Source of the DNA: an uncultured bacterium
GTDB lineage: Bacteria > Verrucomicrobiota > Kiritimatiellia > RFP12 > UBA1067
DNA: 6,471 nt
Direction of reading: 5' to 3'
Assembly: GCA_902779075.1 (NCBI GenBank)
Contig: CACZAK010000436.1
Span: 1-6,471 of the forward strand
The translations under genes were made by a program, and so were the position numbers. Every line of letters begins with the position of its first letter. Position 1 is the first letter of the stretch. Of the stretch, positions 359 through 6,471 are shown in pieces. The notes under the pieces were generated by a model. The model saw nothing but the letters and a program-made list of their open reading frames with translations, made no database searches and had not been told where the DNA came from.

Positions 359-565
359 TTACTCCGCATCGCCTTCACCATCTGTGTCTGGTGCAGAGAG
401 GCGCTTGATGATTGCACGGGCGGTAAACTCCTTTATCTCGCGATGGCGCGGCACGGGCTGGCAGTCACCCGTTATCACATTTCGATAGAAGTCATGCTTT
501 CCGATCGTGCGAACCAGTACACACCCCTCTGCGATAATACGAGCGATAAGATCGCGACGCTTCAT
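359..565 (-). CDS. hicA: HicA-family mRNA interferase toxin
   Basis: This is a 68-residue protein of usual HicA length with the double-stranded-RNA-binding-like fold of the family. HicA cleaves mRNA and halts translation until neutralised by HicB. Visible family features are the opening MKRRDLI, the GKHDFYR segment with the expected catalytic His at residue 24, and the closing VPRHREIKEFTARAIIKRL, which matches the conserved 'VPrH.eI...T...IIKqL' end. I chose the ATG at 565 rather than a start 27 nt upstream: a GGAG lies about 7 nt ahead of it, and its ATGA overlaps the TGA of hicB, the typical coupled arrangement. The antitoxin gene comes first, the reverse of E. coli hicAB but common elsewhere. 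Expression should depend on the promoter upstream of hicB. No defect is visible, so the toxin is probably active. Confidence 0.88.
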   Translation of the reverse strand: MKRRDLIARIIAEGCVLVRTIGKHDFYRNVITGDCQPVPRHREIKEFTARAIIKRLSAPDTDGEGDAE

Positions 566-771
566 GCGAACTCCATCACGCCTGAACAGCATGGAACGGC
601 AGATGGTATCTCCCCCTCAGACACCATGACGTTTATGCCGTTGCGAAGATCACGGAGCATATACTGCAGTTCATCAAGGGTGTCACCCTCCGTCAGATAA
701 TCCGGGTAATCGTTCCAATATCCGATAAATCCACCTTCCTTTGCGGGCCAGTATGTGTAAGGAATGTTCAT
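562..771 (-). CDS. hicB: HicB-family antitoxin (short form)
   Basis: This 69-residue protein matches the partial RNase-H-fold domain of HicB antitoxins: GGFIGYWNDYPDYLTEGDTLDEL, then LRDLRNGI and a GEIPS turn near residue 54. HicB binds HicA and masks its active site. The start ATG at 771 is preceded by AAAGGA about 10 nt upstream and by a perfect TATAAT. The protein ends just after the core domain and has no added ribbon-helix-helix or HTH, so either autorepression uses another mode or it does not bind DNA directly. It overlaps hicA by 4 nt (ATGA), which makes the pair an operon. Residues 59-62 read PCCS, an unusual cysteine pair in this tail. Confidence 0.85.
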   Translation of the reverse strand: MNIPYTYWPAKEGGFIGYWNDYPDYLTEGDTLDELQYMLRDLRNGINVMVSEGEIPSAVPCCSGVMEFA

Positions 772-1021: not shown

Positions 1022-2380
1022 CTACCTGACGATGATCATCATCCCCGTGCGGATATAGATGCCGTCGTCCTTCTTGACGATGCGGTACTTCCTTCCGGCG
1101 TCCTCCGCACTGCGGACGAACGTGAGCGTGTCGAGGTTCGTCGGCGCGGTCGTCCATCCGATGATCTTCGAAGGATGTCTGTTCGTGCCGAGCTTCAGCG
1201 CGATCGTCGCGCTGTCGGCGAAGGAAATCTTGCGGCCCGCTTGCGTGCCGTCCAGGCTGAACGTCCCCGTGTTCTCCGAAAGGTCGAGCGTCGCGCCGTC
1301 CGCGAGCCTGATGTTCGGGAAGTCAGGCAAGAGACACTTGAGCGTACCGCCGACGCAGAGCGTCTTAGTGCCGTAATGCGTCGCGTCGGGATCGGTGAAC
1401 GTGAGATTGCGGATGCCGGTGACATCGGAAGCTACGTAGCTTGTCTTGAGCGTCAAATCAACGCCGGTCGCGTCAGTGTTGCCGTCGATGAAACAAACGT
1501 AGTGCATGTCTCCCGTTTCTTCGGACACCTTGATCGATCCGTTCGTGATCGTACAGCTCTCGATGTAGAAGTGGTCGCCAAACAACTTGATGTCAAGTTC
1601 GTGTCCGCCAAGGTTCATGCGCGACTGCCCGAGGGTCCCGTACTCGTACGCGCGCATCGCGTAGGAATTCGTAAGCGCGAAAAGCGAGTCCTTCGAGAGC
1701 AGCACCGTTCCGAGCAGCGAGTCGGCGACATTGTGAGCGGCACGCAAGCCGGAGTTCACGAACGTGCCGCCGTCCATCACTAGGGGATACTTTCCGAACG
1801 CGTACTGCCCGTTGACGTCGAACGTCGCGCCTTCGCGAACGATTATCTGCGGCACGCGCCCGAAATAGACGTCGTTGATGTTGCTCGACCTGACGGTCGA
1901 TGTCTCGTACTGGCGGAACTGGAGCGTCCAGTCGCCCGGCTCCATGATCTCGACGACCTTGCCGTAATAGCGGAAACTGCCGTCGTCCGCCGTCACGGAC
2001 ATGACGTGGTTCGTTTCGCCGTTGTGTATCAGCAGCACATGGAACGGCTCGTCGCGCCTGTCCGGGTTCCCGCAAATTGAACACGTGAACCACAGCGCAT
2101 ACGCGCCGGGATCGTCGATGCGCATCGTCTGCTCGAACCAGGCATCGCCGCCGTTTGCATACGTGCGCAGATATGCAGAGTATTTGCCGACAAAGGAACC
2201 CGTACCCGCCCATGTGCCATTGTCGGTCGAGAGCCCCACGTTCACGCCATCGCACGTCCAGTGCGGATTTTCCGTCCAATTCGTTGAACTCGCGTACTGG
2301 TAGCTTACACTTATGCTCCCCTCGTCGAACGAACCGTTCTTCAGGAGGTTGTTCTCCTCCAGCACGGGCGCGAACACCAC
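1022..2380 (-). CDS. Large secreted surface protein, C-terminal part (after the frame break)
   Basis: This is the continuation, in another frame, of the gene that begins at 3954. Adding one base near 2411-2413 joins the two parts into a protein of about 977 residues. In joined numbering, residues 535-701 are a jelly-roll, carbohydrate-binding-like domain opening NNLLKNGSF and carrying NWTENPHWTCDG, clearly a duplicate of a domain before the break (373-530). Residues 702-955 look like a right-handed beta-helix or autotransporter-passenger region, with repeated 'GATFDVNG', 'GGTFVNSG' and 'GATLDLSENTG' turns. The last residues are KYRIVKKDDGIYIRTGMMIIVR. No outer-membrane beta-barrel, LPXTG or PEP-CTERM signal is present, so anchoring is unexplained. 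The first codon given is a GTG inside the old reading frame and is unlikely to be a true start; alone this part has no signal peptide. Its function is probably glycan or host-surface binding; no catalytic motif was seen. Confidence 0.7.
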   Translation of the reverse strand: MVFAPVLEENNLLKNGSFDEGSISVSYQYASSTNWTENPHWTCDGVNVGLSTDNGTWAGTGSFVGKYSAYLRTYANGGDAWFEQTMRIDDPGAYALWFTCSICGNPDRRDEPFHVLLIHNGETNHVMSVTADDGSFRYYGKVVEIMEPGDWTLQFRQYETSTVRSSNINDVYFGRVPQIIVREGATFDVNGQYAFGKYPLVMDGGTFVNSGLRAAHNVADSLLGTVLLSKDSLFALTNSYAMRAYEYGTLGQSRMNLGGHELDIKLFGDHFYIESCTITNGSIKVSEETGDMHYVCFIDGNTDATGVDLTLKTSYVASDVTGIRNLTFTDPDATHYGTKTLCVGGTLKCLLPDFPNIRLADGATLDLSENTGTFSLDGTQAGRKISFADSATIALKLGTNRHPSKIIGWTTAPTNLDTLTFVRSAEDAGRKYRIVKKDDGIYIRTGMMIIVR

Positions 2381-3954
2381 GTCGTCGATGCTATTCGCAA
2401 GAACCTTGTTCCCTGGATTTCAACGCGGCGGCTGAAATACTGCATGTTCGCGCTCGAAATGGCAAACCCGCAGAGTACGTTCGTCACGCCACCATGGATG
2501 AGATACGCCCGCAGCGTCGCGCCTTTGCGGCTGTTGTTGGGAACTGCCATGTAATTAAACGAGAAACGGTATTTGCCGGGATTCACAACGCGGAACGTCT
2601 GCTCGGCATGCGCCGGGCCGATATTCGCATCAGAACCATCCGACCGAAGGTACATCGCGAACACGCCGACGTTGATTGAAGCATCCACCCAAGTCCCGTT
2701 CGCCTGTGAAATTCCCGCATTCTTTCCGTCGCACGTCCAGTACGGATTCTCCGGCCATGCTGCGGAACTGGTGTACTGATACGTGTTGCCGTTCGTAATC
2801 ACGCACGCGTCGAAATTGCCGTTCATGAGAAGATTGTCGCCCGTAAGGCCGAACGGTTGACGGCGTCCCGGCGTACCGCACTTCAACACGCCCGCCTCAA
2901 TGTCCGTCCCGCCGTGATACGACTGGCACGGGTGCGTCGCGACGAACGTGCCGTCGCCCTGCTTGACGAGTTTTACGTTCCCGGAAATCTGCACCTCGCG
3001 GTTCTCCGTCGTCTCGCCAGCCGCCACGTTGACGCGGAGTTCGGAGGGCGTCGTCGCAGTATTGATGATCTGCCCGCCTTCGTCCGTTGTGTTCGTTCCG
3101 TAATCCGTGAACGTTCCCGTCGTCGGCGCGAGGAATGTCCCTGTTACAAGGTTGTAGAGGCCGACCTCGTCATCAGAGGCATCGGCGGTGCCCTTCGTGT
3201 CCTTCACGGGAACGATGTTGCATTTAAGGTCGCCGTCCCAGCCGTAGGCCCTAAACCAGTAGAACCTTCCCTTCATCTTGTTGCTGTTGTACTGGGAGAC
3301 GTTCCCGGCATCGTCGTAATCGACGATGGTGAGAATTGCGATCGGCCCAGGAGTCTCGACAAACGCACCGTCGCGGGTAACCCTAGAGGACGAGACCGTC
3401 CCATTGTCAATCCTCTTCGTTTCCGCCTTTGAACCGGACAGACTGCTCTCCACCGTAAGCAGATAGTCAACCCCCGTCGAATTGATTCCCAAGCTCGGCG
3501 ACGACTGTTTGCTGCCGTGGTCAACCCGAAATATAGCTTCCGAGTTCTTGAGGCAGGCAAAAGCCTGCGAACCTCCTGATTTGCGAGCGCCGTAAAGAAA
3601 CTGAAGGGAGATTGCGGAATGGCGCAATTTCGTCTCCACATGGTCTAACTTGAATGGCGTGTAGTCGGTCTGGACACACTGCGTACCATCGGCGGTGACG
3701 TATTCAAGTATCTGGTATCTGCCGTTTCCAAGCGTCGGATTTCCGCCGCCCTTGAGACCCTTGACGGTGAGGTTGTGCCCCGCGAGATCGACCGTCGCGC
3801 CATAAGCGACAGAAAGCACACCATCAACGGCCTCGTCGGTAGTGAGCGTGTAGTCCGCGTTGATCGTGCGGTCCGCCGCCAACGACGGCAACGCCGCCAC
3901 GCAAATTACCGCCGCTGAGACTGCGGCTTTCCATGTTTGTTTTCTCATGCTCAT
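2341..3954 (-). CDS. Large secreted surface protein, N-terminal part (frame broken near 2411)
   Basis: Start ATG at 3954: AGGAGA (3966-3961) lies 6 nt upstream, whereas the upstream ATG at 3984 has no such site. Residues 1-26 are a Sec signal peptide (basic MSMRKQTWK, hydrophobic AAVSAAVICVAALP, then SLA before ADRT). Residues 28-66 resemble beta-helix openings of large Kiritimatiellota-type surface proteins (INADYTLT, VDLAGHNLTV). Residues 80-285 resemble a LamG/concanavalin-like jelly roll (ILEYVTADGTQCVQTDYTP, FLYGARKSG, EVGLYNLVTGTFLAPTTGTF). Residues 326-358 match the autotransporter-associated strand repeat (LVKQGDGTFVAT...YHGGTDIEAGVLKC). Residues 373-530 begin the first of two jelly-roll repeats (NLLMNGNF, WPENPYWTCDG). 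After residue 515 the frame is lost and 22 aberrant residues lead to a stop. The correct continuation (NKVLANSIDDVVFAPV) is readable in the next frame. A promoter and hairpin leader precede the gene. Confidence 0.75.
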   Translation of the reverse strand: MSMRKQTWKAAVSAAVICVAALPSLAADRTINADYTLTTDEAVDGVLSVAYGATVDLAGHNLTVKGLKGGGNPTLGNGRYQILEYVTADGTQCVQTDYTPFKLDHVETKLRHSAISLQFLYGARKSGGSQAFACLKNSEAIFRVDHGSKQSSPSLGINSTGVDYLLTVESSLSGSKAETKRIDNGTVSSSRVTRDGAFVETPGPIAILTIVDYDDAGNVSQYNSNKMKGRFYWFRAYGWDGDLKCNIVPVKDTKGTADASDDEVGLYNLVTGTFLAPTTGTFTDYGTNTTDEGGQIINTATTPSELRVNVAAGETTENREVQISGNVKLVKQGDGTFVATHPCQSYHGGTDIEAGVLKCGTPGRRQPFGLTGDNLLMNGNFDACVITNGNTYQYTSSAAWPENPYWTCDGKNAGISQANGTWVDASINVGVFAMYLRSDGSDANIGPAHAEQTFRVVNPGKYRFSFNYMAVPNNSRKGATLRAYLIHGGVTNVLCGFAISSANMQYFSRRVEIQGTRFLRIASTTWCSRPCWRRTTS

Positions 3955-4017
3955 TTTGATTCTCCTTTTTTTGTTGTTGCCCATGTGGGTGGGTTGTTTA
4001 AGATTGGGCGTGAAACT

Positions 4018-4209: not shown

Positions 4210-4244
4210 TCGTTCCGAACCGTAATATCACGGCGCGGAACGGG
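4210..4244. repeat. REP-like palindromic repeat across the stop codon of the HTH-Fic gene
   Basis: CGTTCCG (4211-4217) pairs with CGGAACG (4236-4242), and inside it CCGT (4220-4223) pairs with ACGG (4230-4233) around AATATC, giving an 11-bp stem with a small internal loop. It matches 271-305 at 28 of 35 positions. The stop codon of the HTH-Fic gene (4230-4228) lies in the inner loop and stem. There is no T-run on the minus strand; a TTATTTT run lies on the plus-strand side before it. Confidence 0.55.
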
Positions 4245-5160
4245 AATCCGCTTCGTCGGGCATGTTGTATTCATCAAGTTCATACGGTTTCAAATACCCC
4301 CCGCGCAACGTCTCCTCGTCAGTACACCATGCATCTTCGTTCTTGGAATAATCTTCATCCGGCTGCTCCAATACGCGCAGACGCCACCATCTAATCATCC
4401 CGCGATAGATGATCACGGGCGGATATCCGTTACGCATCAGGATGAAGTTGACCACCATGTATGCCGTGCGCTCAAGCTGTTCGTCGTATGGCTCCAGGGC
4501 GAGGAAGCGCACGAAGAAGTCCGCAGCCAGCCAGACGGGGTGTTTCTTGAGCGAACGGACGCGCTCCACGCACTTTTTCACGCACTTGCGTCCCTTCATA
4601 GGCTCGCGGTAGTTCGGATCGCCGCACAAGAGCAGTCCGTGCAGCTGTTCCACGAACCGCACCGAAAGCCATCGCCTTTCCTTCAACGCCGCCATAATGA
4701 AATTTATCGCAAGCTGGTGGTACTCCACGTCCTTCCGATTGCACTTCGGCTTGCCTTCAACCGCCCGTCCCGACAGTATCTCGCATACTTCGCCGAAGTT
4801 GAAGGACGAATATTTAAGCGTATGGAGATGGAACGCCGACCCGCGAACGAAGTATTCTAGAGCGTCATCTGGATTGCCGAGCCCCGCTTCCCGCGCATCG
4901 CGCACGGCGGCGTCGGCGTAGCGCAGGTGATTTGCAAGGTGCTTTGGAATGTGAGCCCCCCGGTGCTGGCGTCCGTCAGGTGGCCTCACGGCAACCGTGG
5001 GAATCGTCCATACGCCATCAATAGGCTTCGCGGCGTACACCTTGTCTTCGCGGCAAAGCTGCAACACGCGCCGCTTGGTCATTCCCCAGCGCTTTGCAGT
5101 CTGGGCGGCACTCTGCCGATCAGTGATTTCCGGGCGACTTTGTCTGAAATATTGTTCCAT
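4228..5160 (-). CDS. Winged-helix DNA-binding protein with a catalytically degenerate Fic domain
   Basis: This 310-residue protein fuses two domains. Residues 16-54 form a MerR/excisionase-like winged helix (SAAQTAKRWGMTKRRVLQLC, wing ending GVWTIP) of the kind fused to Fic in gut Firmicutes. Residues 105-252 follow the Fic fold: FNFGEVCEILSG, then VEGKP, then HPVWLAADFFVRFL, then RTAYMVVNFILMRNGYPPVII. At the active site, where Fic AMP-transferases have HPFxDGNGRTAR, this protein reads EPYDEQLERTAY (223-234): the catalytic His is Glu and GNG is QLE, while Pro, the RTA and all flanking helices are kept. The inhibitory (S/T)xxxE(G/N) motif is also lost; an ungapped alignment puts Lys116 in place of Glu. 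AMP transfer is therefore unlikely. The ATG at 5160 is chosen because the HTH begins just after it and the upstream frame opens only with TTG. It diverges from the replication gene, the position of a regulator. Its actual role is unknown. Confidence 0.8.
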   Translation of the reverse strand: MEQYFRQSRPEITDRQSAAQTAKRWGMTKRRVLQLCREDKVYAAKPIDGVWTIPTVAVRPPDGRQHRGAHIPKHLANHLRYADAAVRDAREAGLGNPDDALEYFVRGSAFHLHTLKYSSFNFGEVCEILSGRAVEGKPKCNRKDVEYHQLAINFIMAALKERRWLSVRFVEQLHGLLLCGDPNYREPMKGRKCVKKCVERVRSLKKHPVWLAADFFVRFLALEPYDEQLERTAYMVVNFILMRNGYPPVIIYRGMIRWWRLRVLEQPDEDYSKNEDAWCTDEETLRGGYLKPYELDEYNMPDEADSRSAP

Positions 5161-5169
5161 GGGCGCGGT

Positions 5170-5198
5170 ATTATACAGCAGGTGGGAAGGATATGCAA
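5170..5198 (-). promoter_or_regulatory. Promoter of the HTH-Fic gene, probably giving a leaderless mRNA
   Basis: TTGCAT (5198-5193), 17 nt, then a perfect TATAAT (5175-5170) on the minus strand. The ATG at 5160 is only 9 nt past the -10 box, so transcription would start at or within a few bases of the start codon. The intervening ACCGCGCCC contains no ribosome binding site, which fits leaderless translation. Confidence 0.6.
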
Positions 5199-5271
5199 GG
5201 GGTTTGTGAGGTGTGCTGTAACTCACACCTTTATTTCGCGCCAGAAAACCGCCCTTAAAACTCAATGTTTA

Positions 5272-5296
5272 TGCCATAATCATGCCGAATATGGCA
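5272..5296. promoter_or_regulatory. Inverted repeat in the divergent control region, candidate operator
   Basis: TGCCATA (5272-5278) and TATGGCA (5290-5296) are perfect 7-bp arms 11 bp apart, with a third CATGCCG half-site-like element between them. Centre-to-centre spacing is 18 bp, close to two helical turns. It lies between the HTH-Fic promoter and the rightward promoter, next to A-tracts (5302-5321). This suits binding by a dimeric regulator such as the neighbouring HTH protein, which is inferred from position only. Confidence 0.4.
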
Positions 5297-5335
5297 CGAT
5301 ATAAAAAAATATTAAAAAAAATTCATGCACGTCAG
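5297..5335. other. A-tract-rich stretch, possible bent or easily melted DNA
   Basis: This stretch contains two A-runs of seven and eight (5303-5309 and 5314-5321) separated by TATT, far more AT-rich than the genes on either side. Phased A-tracts bend DNA and often flank replication control regions. No coding is seen. It is followed by AAAACC-GGG-GGTTTT (5337-5351), a perfect 6-bp hairpin. Confidence 0.35.
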
Positions 5336-5347
5336 AAAAACCGGGGG

Positions 5348-5375
5348 TTTTCAGCAAATATGGCTTCTATATATT
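5348..5375 (+). promoter_or_regulatory. Candidate rightward promoter for the replication leader
   Basis: TTTTCA (5348-5353), 16 nt, then TATATT (5370-5375) give a plausible promoter with a start near 5382, just ahead of the structured leader. The -35 overlaps the right arm of the AAAACC/GGTTTT hairpin. A shifted -10 (TATATA, 5368-5373) is possible. Confidence 0.4.
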
Positions 5376-5391
5376 TAAGAGACGTATCTAA

Positions 5392-5517
5392 GGGGCTAAT
5401 AAGGCAAATGCAGCCGCATTTAACCTGAAAGCCCCAGCAACCAATCTCAACCCCAAATAGGACATCAGAGAACTCTAGTCACGTCAACAAGACGCGGCCT
5501 TGTTTTTTGTTGTCCTA
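5392..5517 (+). ncRNA. Structured leader RNA upstream of the replication initiator
   Basis: This is a non-coding stretch between a candidate promoter and the initiator gene. Its first half folds as one long nested hairpin: GGGGCT (5392-5397) with AGCCCC (5430-5435), AGG (5402-5404) with CCT (5424-5426), and AAATGC (5406-5411) with GCATTT (5416-5421) around AGCC. The second half is closed by TAGGACA (5458-5464) with TGTCCTA (5511-5517), which encloses the terminator-like hairpin at 5486-5508. I do not recognise a known riboswitch. The layout suggests either an attenuator controlling initiator synthesis, as in plasmids where a countertranscript sets early termination, or a free small RNA of about 125 nt. 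Complementary arms are directly visible; function is inferred. Confidence 0.45.
5486..5508 (+). terminator. Terminator-like hairpin in the replication leader
   Basis: AACAAG (5486-5491) pairs with CTTGTT (5499-5504) around ACGCGGC, followed by a T-run (5503-5508). The stem is short and AU-rich, so read-through is likely. It lies 40 bp before the initiator start codon, the expected place for an attenuator. Confidence 0.45.
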
Positions 5518-5547
5518 AACTTTTAACCCCTAAAAAGGAAACAACAA

Positions 5548-5661
5548 ATGAACATTGACGTAAAAATGGCGGATCGGATACTTGATACCAAACTGCCGAC
5601 CGCTGTAAAGCTTGTTTACATGGTAATCGTTAACCATGCCAACGCCAAATCCCGCCTGTGA
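5548..5661 (+). pseudogene. Replication initiator, N-terminal fragment (broken winged helix)
   Basis: ATG at 5548 has AAAGGAA (5534-5540) 7 nt upstream, the best ribosome site in this region, so this is the original start. The 37 residues contain KLPTAVKLVYMVIVNHANAK, which matches the first helix of the winged-helix domain of phage-type initiators (typically 'l...aKlVl..la.han..g...PS...La...g.S.sTV...l..L...G'). The frame then ends in TGA at 5659-5661, while the rest of the domain resumes at VSKALKLLVERGFV in another frame. Helix 2 and the start of the recognition helix, about 20 residues, are missing, so a deletion that was not a multiple of three is the simplest explanation. The TGA overlaps the downstream GTG (GTGA), so coupled re-initiation could still produce the second part. 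Confidence 0.65.
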
Positions 5662-6404
5662 GTAAGGCACTAAAGCTACTTGTGGAACGCGGTTTTGTCA
5701 CAAAGTATTCCTCGCCTGGACGAAGAAGTAAAACCTACAAGCCCACAGACCCTACGAGTCCACCAGATGAACTCAACAGTCCACCAGATGAACTCAACAG
5801 TCCACCAGATGAACTTTTAAAGTCCAATAGATGTACTTTAAAAGTACACCAGATGGACACTAACATAAGAATAGAACAAAAGAAAAGAACTACTACATCA
5901 ACATCTATGAACGAGGAGGATGAGGATGAGTTTACATTGATGTTTGACGAGTTCTGGAAGGCGTACCCCGACAAGTGCCTGTCCAAGGCCGACAGGGAAA
6001 AGTGCAAGATGAAGTACGTTGAAGTGCTGCGGGCCGAGCCCGAGCCAAGGAAGTTCCACGGCTTAGTCATGGAAGCACTGGAATGGTGGCGCAATAGCCA
6101 GAAATGGCACGCCGAGAACGGCCGCTACATCTGTGCGCCTCTCAAATGGCTGGAGGATAAATCGTGGGAGATCAAGCCAGCGCAGAGGGTCGAGACGGAG
6201 GCGGAACGAAAAACGGAGGCAAAGCCCGCAGTTCCGAAGAAGTTTGACTGGCGGCTCTGCATTGAGCAGTGCAAGAACTGCACGGCCAACGGCTGCCTCA
6301 AGGGAGTGAAGGTACCGCCTGCATATAACCCAACTCGTCCATACCGGCCGGATGAGTGCGATTACTTCTCCAAGATCGGCGGCGACGTGCGGAAATCAGC
6401 CTGA
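5658..6404 (+). CDS. Phage/plasmid-type replication initiator, main part
   Basis: This encodes 248 residues from GTG. Residues 1-28 are the tail of a winged helix (SKALKLLVERGFV, then a basic wing). Residues 33-67 are the translated iterons (SPPDELN repeated). Residues 92-172 match the C-terminal domain of phage replisome-organiser/initiator proteins: FDEFWKAYPDK, then AL.WW.NSQKWHAENGRYICAP, then KWLEDKSWE. That domain in relatives recruits or loads the replicative helicase. Residues 201-234 hold C201, C205, C208, C213 and C234, a possible zinc site. No helicase loader or helicase gene is visible. The GTG has no ribosome site of its own and overlaps the preceding TGA, so it depends on coupling or is not made; a full protein needs the missing winged-helix segment. 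It diverges from the HTH-Fic gene. Phage and plasmid origin are both possible. Confidence 0.75.
   Translation: MSKALKLLVERGFVTKYSSPGRRSKTYKPTDPTSPPDELNSPPDELNSPPDELLKSNRCTLKVHQMDTNIRIEQKKRTTTSTSMNEEDEDEFTLMFDEFWKAYPDKCLSKADREKCKMKYVEVLRAEPEPRKFHGLVMEALEWWRNSQKWHAENGRYICAPLKWLEDKSWEIKPAQRVETEAERKTEAKPAVPKKFDWRLCIEQCKNCTANGCLKGVKVPPAYNPTRPYRPDECDYFSKIGGDVRKSA
5757..5859 (+). repeat. Five iterons inside the initiator gene (probable replication origin)
   Basis: Five copies of AGTCCACCAGATGAACT start at 5757, 5778, 5799, 5821 and 5843, a period of 21, 21, 22 and 22 bp. Copies 1-3 share the 17-bp core exactly; copy 4 (AGTCCAATAGATGTACT) and copy 5 (AGTACACCAGATGGACA) are diverged. Each unit is nearly palindromic (AGTyCAyC-N-GrTGrACT), as expected for a dimeric winged-helix initiator. 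They lie between the DNA-binding and C-terminal domains, exactly where phage lambda ori lies in gene O. The 1-bp period change at copies 4-5 shifts their translation into a different phase (KVHQMD rather than SPPDELN), so spacing on DNA rather than protein sequence appears conserved. Confidence 0.75.
5862..5914 (+). other. A-rich, strand-asymmetric stretch after the iterons, candidate unwinding element
   Basis: The bases following the last iteron are mostly A with few G or C (for example GAACAAAAGAAAAGAAC, 5874-5890), and the encoded linker is low-complexity (IEQKKRTTTSTS). In lambda-type origins such a stretch is melted first once the iterons are bound. The assignment rests on composition and position. 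Confidence 0.5.
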
Positions 6405-6471
6405 CCCAAGTCCAAGGGCCTCTCACACCCAAGTCCAAGGGCCTCGTACACTCCAGTGTAAGAGCCTCGCA
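6404..6471 (+). repeat. 23-bp tandem repeat running off the window end
   Basis: ACCCAAGTCCAAGGGCCTC occurs identically at 6404-6422 and 6427-6445, and a diverged copy (ACTCCAGTGTAAGAGCCTC) at 6450-6468, all exactly 23 bp apart. The array begins at the last base of the initiator stop codon and continues beyond the window. The third copy includes ACACT-CC-AGTGT (6448-6459 region), a perfect short dyad. The lack of unique spacers argues against CRISPR. It may be a second iteron set, a partition site or a dispersed intergenic repeat. Confidence 0.6.

Follow-up and report, generated by a model that had tools for sequence, protein, structure and literature searches.

HTH-Fic proteins with a degenerate active site lie divergent from phage-type replication genes in uncultured bacteria and are candidate regulators of these genes

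Background

Fusions of a helix-turn-helix (HTH) domain to a Fic domain are already known, and so are degenerate Fic proteins, which are described in the available parts of the relevant papers as toxins, effectors or possible enzymes, with no HTH mentioned there (PMC5651007, PMC2686095, PMC4454073). For the HTH of HTH-Fic fusions, the available part of the Fido paper suggests a possible role in the regulation of fic or of further components of AMPylation (PMC2686095). A genetic arrangement of a regulator facing a replication gene is described for PICI, in which the gene for a Stl/Rpr repressor and pri-rep are divergent and the origin after pri-rep has two sets of iterons around an AT-rich region (PMC6092414). 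A description of an HTH-pseudoFic regulator clade was not found in the open-licence full-text literature searched.

The DNA analysed here, referred to as the window, is a stretch of 6,471 nucleotides from an uncultured bacterium. According to an initial annotation, made from its letters alone, one of its genes encodes an HTH-Fic fusion with a dead Fic active site in the position of a replicon regulator.

Results

The gene listed first in Table 1 specifies a protein in which an HTH and a Fic fold are combined in a single chain, as judged by an AF2 model and Pfam. The Fic fold was detected by profile comparison, by AF2 and by two structural aligners, ruling out a false assignment, and the nearest solved structures over the Fic core are FICD/HYPE and C. 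elegans FIC-1. The initial annotation of a Fic scaffold with a dead active site, whose loop reads EPYDEQLERTAY, was therefore confirmed; structure prediction, suggested there as a check, returned the Fic fold and left this reading standing. The winged helix, described as intact, was borne out as well. The HTH with its wing (residues 15-64) is the best-conserved segment of the family, showing a mean column entropy of 0.90 versus 1.23-2.24 in other parts, and Pfam HTH_17 was matched in 18 of 36 relatives at E<=0.01. Across 36 sequences with identities down to 32% and full-length reading frames, 26 columns are invariant. The Fic-like domain is weakly matched by phrog_11900, a phage family of unassigned function (E 4.2e-6). 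A known defence system was dropped as a candidate, since a PADLOC search revealed nothing beyond weak matches to Fic models.

The same HTH_17-type domain was also encountered fused to HMGL-like aldolase domains (L014 1456-2658; L020 1474-2709), to a C5 cytosine methylase of a Blautia phage (L031 1603-3042), and to an AAA-ATPase with a PDDEXK nuclease (L029 4027-5886). It appears to be a promiscuous N-terminal DNA-binding module.

Table 1. Positions of the features detected in the window
Feature	Position	Strand	Basis and remarks
HTH-pseudoFic gene	4228..5160	-	310 residues; truncated copy (DNA alignment vs L001)
Winged helix-turn-helix, residues 15-64	4969..5118	-	AF2 secondary structure, column entropy, Pfam HTH_17
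Fic-type helical domain, residues 94-264	4369..4881	-	AF2 model, structural alignment
Former active-site loop, reads EPYDEQLERTAY	4459..4494	-	Family alignment
Intergenic region common to both divergent genes	5161..5547	.	AT 59% vs 45% window-wide
RepO/DnaD-like replication gene (rep), broken	5548..6404	+	55-nt deletion vs L001 after 5655; frame shifted
Still-open rest of rep	5658-6404	+	phrog_270 E 1.8e-11
21-bp tandem repeats, 4.6 copies, inside rep	5757..5855	+	Adjoin AT-rich DNA; L001 counterpart 7256-7353
23-bp tandem repeats, 3 copies, 3' of rep	6404..6471	+	Run past window end; L001 6535-6686, 6.6 copies
HicA-like toxin gene	359-592	-	Pfam HicA_toxin E 7.8e-9
69-residue ORF at HicB antitoxin position	562-771	-	Overlaps HicA-like gene; no Pfam match
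Autotransporter-like gene	1022-3984	-	Weak PATR repeat match

Alignment of the window with the DNA of L001, an intact copy, revealed a deletion of 122 nt after codon 305 of the Fic-like gene, which takes out the conserved C-terminal helix and leaves 5 residues where the L001 protein has its C-terminal 58. The rep gene, intact in L001, is frameshifted early by the 55-nt deletion. In the 305 codons common to both copies, 14 nonsynonymous and 10 synonymous changes are present (dN/dS 0.40, one-sided p 0.028). The window thus holds a broken copy of an HTH-pseudoFic/replication pair, and because the last 58 residues are missing and the facing rep gene is frameshifted, this pair is probably no longer a working one. 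The initial interpretation, supported in part, needs this correction for the window copy, and L001, L025, and L002 are better suited than the window for studying the family. The autotransporter-like gene is present as two overlapping ORFs (2341-3984 and 1022-2380), which resembles the effect of a frameshift and is a third defect in the window beside the two deletions.

Functional motifs were compared in an alignment of 53 rows. Among these, 38 belong to the family with the dead active site (33 database proteins, the window, L001, L002, L007, and L025; window/L001/P0002 and L002/P0025 are near-duplicates), and 15 comparison rows are relatives returned by the same searches, L041-L043 being without an HTH within the stretch used. 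Excluded were P0003, P0022, and P0023 as fragments or frameshifted, P0021 as an apparent deaminase chimera, and L021 because of a wrong frame; P0044 and P0045 are later matches outside the alignment. The motif HPFx[DEN]GNGR is retained in 0/38 family rows versus 13/15 comparison rows, among which L010 is cut within the motif and P0039 reads HPFSNGNGT. A single decayed enzyme can therefore be ruled out, and the search for homologues keeping the motif, by which the initial annotation was to be checked, left it unrefuted within the family. The catalytic His is found in one family row (P0036), and ten other residues occupy its position in the remainder. The second Gly of GNGR is changed to Glu in 36 rows and to Pro in two, and the Arg of TxR after the motif to Tyr in 36 and to Phe in two. 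The first Arg is retained in 26/38 rows and the Asn in 22/38.

The inhibitory motif (S/T)xxxE(G/N) was described initially as lost, which applies to the motif as a whole (complete in 0/37 rows), but not uniformly to its Glu, which is present in 18/37. Neither the preceding Ser/Thr nor the following Gly/Asn was found in any of the 37 rows, and a His and a Ser near the former motif are present in all of them. Class I Fic proteins are likewise devoid of the inhibitory motif. The docking-flap segment comprises 41-43 residues in 32 family rows and 52 in six, versus 61-64 in the 15 comparison rows, and is thus 9-23 residues shorter in 38/38; no hairpin is seen in this segment of the L001 model. Length was the better measure of the flap, since a regular expression for it matched just 8/15 comparison rows. 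Apparently, the capacity for catalysis has been removed together with those for phosphate binding and target docking, with the fold and the DNA-binding domain apparently kept under constraint. As replacement or shortening has affected the working parts but not the fold, and several of the new residues are near-invariant, a new function under selection would fit better than simple decay. The earlier notion of a pseudoenzyme with a preserved fold is supported by these data, the fold being documented by AF2 and structural alignment.

In a maximum likelihood tree of 51 rows, from which L007 and L010 were excluded, 37 family rows are located on one side of a 100/100 branch and the 14 others on the opposite side; the tree is unrooted and its comparison set is the output of the same searches. 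Long-branch warnings apply to P0039, P0024, and P0038, and to L002/P0025 joining the P0029 group. Motif-keeping homologues, named initially as a possible refutation, are indeed encoded in this bacterial family, among them HTH-Fic fusions (L034, L035, L036), but they are placed across the 100/100 branch. On sequence grounds, the family is one clade of Fic pseudoenzymes.

Regarding occurrence, four dead copies were detected at E<=1e-15 in three of 114 genomes of the bacterial family, two in G001, one in G002, and a fragment in G064. L025 is the second copy in the genome of L001, whose record is uncultured bacterium RUG10619 (RUG presumably denoting a rumen genome), and the L002 record is Lentisphaerae MAG SIG88. 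At E<=1e-3, 44/114 genomes were matched, and the weaker matches inspected were motif-bearing Fic proteins, HTH parts in other fusions, or stretches ended by contig ends. Searches of the order (161 genomes), the class (345), and a phylum sample (387) yielded no further dead copies at E<=1e-15; the other strong matches inspected carry the motif. The last two protein searches scored just the 7998 and 7995 candidates with the most words in common, and the clusters obtained in the protein searches derive from ena, lgn, or jgi sources, except for one from ncbi (P0038). The fourth genomic copy (L007/L095) is a fragment near a contig end with no replication gene in view. In this region of G064 (L095 17419-19662), the dead-Fic fragment (WPFEEGNECTAY) comes after a 512-residue ORF without Pfam match, an arrangement that may reflect fusion, recombination, or an assembly chimera.

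Three pattern-based scans (A1, A3, A4) of IMG/VR viral contigs gave no relative, which disfavours a viral protein family. In 23 IMG/VR loci with relatives of the RepO-like protein, 0/2209 ORFs match the dead-Fic profile at E<=1, and the primase-like protein of L025 has no IMG/VR relative. By tblastn, three phage records and 190 plasmid records were matched. The two near full-length matches inspected, Javan422 and Leptotrichia, both carry the catalytic motif; a third match is from Mycoplasmopsis.

The position of a replicon regulator ascribed to the window gene was also recovered for its relatives. In each of the three genomic contexts that are complete, namely L001 (with the window), L025, and L002, two of them from one genome, the dead-Fic gene is divergent from a phage-type replication gene, RepO-like in two cases and primase-like in one. 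L001 faces a gene for a RepO/DnaD-like initiator (HTH_36 E 2.2e-11, phrog_270 E 4.1e-20), L025 one for a primase/helicase-like protein of 466 residues (phrog_3022 E 5.3e-42), and L002 one for a RepO-like protein of 207 residues (phrog_270 E 9.3e-19), which is followed by a gene for a DnaC-like loader (phrog_50 E 1.8e-18). The divergent genes are separated by 382 nt in L001/window, 166 nt in L025, and 252 nt in L002, and the modules are flanked by housekeeping or autotransporter-like genes. Around five motif-bearing control loci (L008, L009, L010, L040, L049), a small set, 0/9 neighbour ORFs match replication initiator, primase, or loader families, and the neighbours include HipA, PIN, RadC, and epimerase; L011, the facing side of which is cut at a contig end, is outside this control. 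No second Fic or known antitoxin gene is present next to the dead-Fic gene in L001, L025, or L002, and the HicA-like gene of the window is more than 3.6 kb away.

Short primase/helicase-like proteins (about 430-466 residues) are also encoded repeatedly by orphan genes in this bacterial family (L065-L067, L069, L088, L089). Four of five checked genes of this kind without a dead-Fic neighbour have adjoining tandem arrays of 10-, 11-, or 22-bp units (L108 3912-4031, L109 1743-1847, L089 2787-2890, L069 2746-2816), and L067 has none.

The intergenic region of the window contains an imperfect inverted repeat (5272-5296) with a look-alike in L025, the score of which was equalled in 1/40 shuffles. 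Comparisons of L001/L025, L001/L002, and L025/L002 were no better than shuffles. Because L001 and L002 lend no support to the window/L025 repeat, a shared operator is not established and none is claimed. Promoter and terminator scans gave scores near the shuffle level, and a known RNA in the leader was dropped, since no Rfam match reached the gathering score.

Repeats are also found at the replication genes. The 3' side of the L025 replication gene has inverted arrays of 11-bp units, a stretch of AT-rich DNA, and an array of 22-bp units. The rep gene of L001 and of the window contains 21-bp repeats that adjoin AT-rich DNA and is followed by repeats of 23 bp. The 21-bp array may be origin-like; in phage lambda the origin lies inside the initiator gene O. 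In L002, TRF detected no iteron array, just two copies of an 11-bp unit inside the region. Arrays of the 23-bp ACTGGAGTGTA type are present at two further places in genome G001 with no rep in view (L106 ~4630-4730; L107 ~860-1020), and the nine exact matches of the 23-bp pattern in this genome are distributed as six beside rep and one plus two elsewhere.

No integrase was noticed among the ORFs read around L001, L025, and L002, no flanking repeats above shuffles were seen in L001 and L025 (the L002 flank is short), and xis, attachment repeats, and packaging genes were not found. The window, L001, and L025 are without tRNA genes, and L027 contains one tRNA-Gln about 11 kb from the module. An integration site was dropped on these grounds, no flanking repeats having been found either.

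Discussion

Because the catalytic motif is lost in all 38 family rows, the family is set apart by a 100/100 branch, and replication genes are divergent in 3/3 contexts, these proteins constitute a clade of pseudoenzymes that most likely act as repressors of small phage-derived replication modules. The dead-Fic protein would probably switch the facing genes and not modify proteins. For the family as a whole, descent from Fic enzymes followed by conversion into regulators of such modules is a reading to which we give an even chance. DNA binding, repression, operator, and inducer are inferred. The HTH-pseudoFic protein is probably a dimer, held together by the Fic-derived helical domain, and this dimer would bind the intergenic region common to both genes, repressing the replication gene along with its own. 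Repression might be relieved when a partner, such as a protein brought in by a phage, binds to the scaffold. The initial annotation envisaged the sensing of a nucleotide by the Fic pocket. Since Glu stands in place of the phosphate-binding Gly, and Tyr in place of the Arg, in 36/38 rows, a nucleotide as the signal, and with it a sensor with an intact pocket, is unlikely; this Glu would rather point to a protein partner or a structural role. A bolder proposal, which we regard as possible though doubtful, sees here a new class of master repressors: the Fic enzyme would have become a protein-sensing scaffold on an HTH that silences minimal phage-derived replication modules until binding of a phage protein to the face of the dead active site lets them fire. 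In this proposal, the near-invariant Glu would imitate a phosphate from within the protein and keep the scaffold locked in a single state.

Action at the origin was considered instead: the HTH would bind rep-proximal DNA or repeats, and the pseudoFic scaffold would contact the initiator, serving as an accessory factor or in copy control. Two of the three contexts do have repeat arrays within or next to the replication gene, and the facing replication proteins vary in kind with the regulator constant, but L002 has no array, and a repressor bound at a promoter is a simpler solution than a scaffold touching two unrelated initiators; this explanation seems improbable to us. Still lower is the chance that the proteins are enzymes with an altered chemistry, comparable to Doc, AvrB, or the degenerate, toxic C. 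fetus Fic2. According to the available parts of the sources, Fic2 is toxic despite changes of Gly to Thr and Arg to Ala (PMC5651007), and the H-to-Q Doc clade was argued to be possibly active (PMC4454073). The first Arg and the Asn are indeed kept in many rows (26/38 and 22/38), but the His, on which the toxicity of Fic2 depended (PMC5651007), is gone in 37/38 with ten different substitutes, the Gly is Glu in 36/38, and the flap segment is shortened in all rows.

Slightly behind this in our estimate, and thus very unlikely, is a role as antitoxin or decoy paired with motif-bearing HTH-Fic enzymes, or as inhibitory helix in trans. Neutralisation of one Fic protein by another is known in C. fetus (PMC5651007), motif-bearing HTH-Fic proteins do occur in the same bacterial family, and the inhibitory Glu is retained in 18/37 rows. 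On the other hand, Ser/Thr and Gly/Asn of the inhibitory motif are found in 0/37, the three complete contexts are without an adjacent Fic gene, and a profile search of G001 at E<=1e-3 gave just the two dead copies. The lowest probability is assigned to the family being a collection of functionless, decaying relics. Both window genes are broken, mobility genes are absent nearby, and genomic copies are few (four, one a fragment, in 3/114 genomes at E<=1e-15), but the 26 invariant columns over 36 full-length sequences with identities down to 32%, the near-invariance of the new residues, and a dN/dS below 1 argue against it.

Fic proteins are otherwise studied as enzymes or toxins, and a clade in which the Fic functions appear to be gone, with fold and DNA-binding domain under constraint, would clearly exemplify the recruitment of a Fic pseudoenzyme to regulation. 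The family also points to tiny replication modules in uncultured gut-type bacteria. Since intact copies exist, DNA binding and repression are directly testable.

Among known proteins, the motif-bearing HTH-Fic fusions (HTH_17 + PF02661; L008/L034, L011/L035, L009/L036, L049, Streptococcus phage Javan422 (L028), and Leptotrichia plasmid JCM16776p1 (L030)) share with the family the type of N-terminal HTH, the Fic fold, and a comparable length. They differ by HPFxDGNGRTGR and a segment of flap length, and the five chromosomal motif-bearing loci with neighbours in view have no adjoining match to replication families. FICD/HYPE and C. elegans FIC-1 are active enzymes without an HTH, in which the motif and the inhibitory Glu are intact. 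The degenerate Fido proteins, C. fetus Fic2, AvrB, and the H-to-Q Doc clade, also have an altered motif on a Fic fold (PMC5651007, PMC2686095, PMC4454073), but Fic2, unlike the family, retains the His required for toxicity (PMC5651007). With regard to genetic organization, the modules described here differ from PICI, as far as these are covered in the available part of the source, in the kind of regulator and in that no integrase, xis, attachment repeats, or packaging genes were found. They resemble PICI in the divergent orientation of regulator and replication gene and, in L025, in repeat sets that enclose AT-rich DNA on the 3' side of this gene (PMC6092414).
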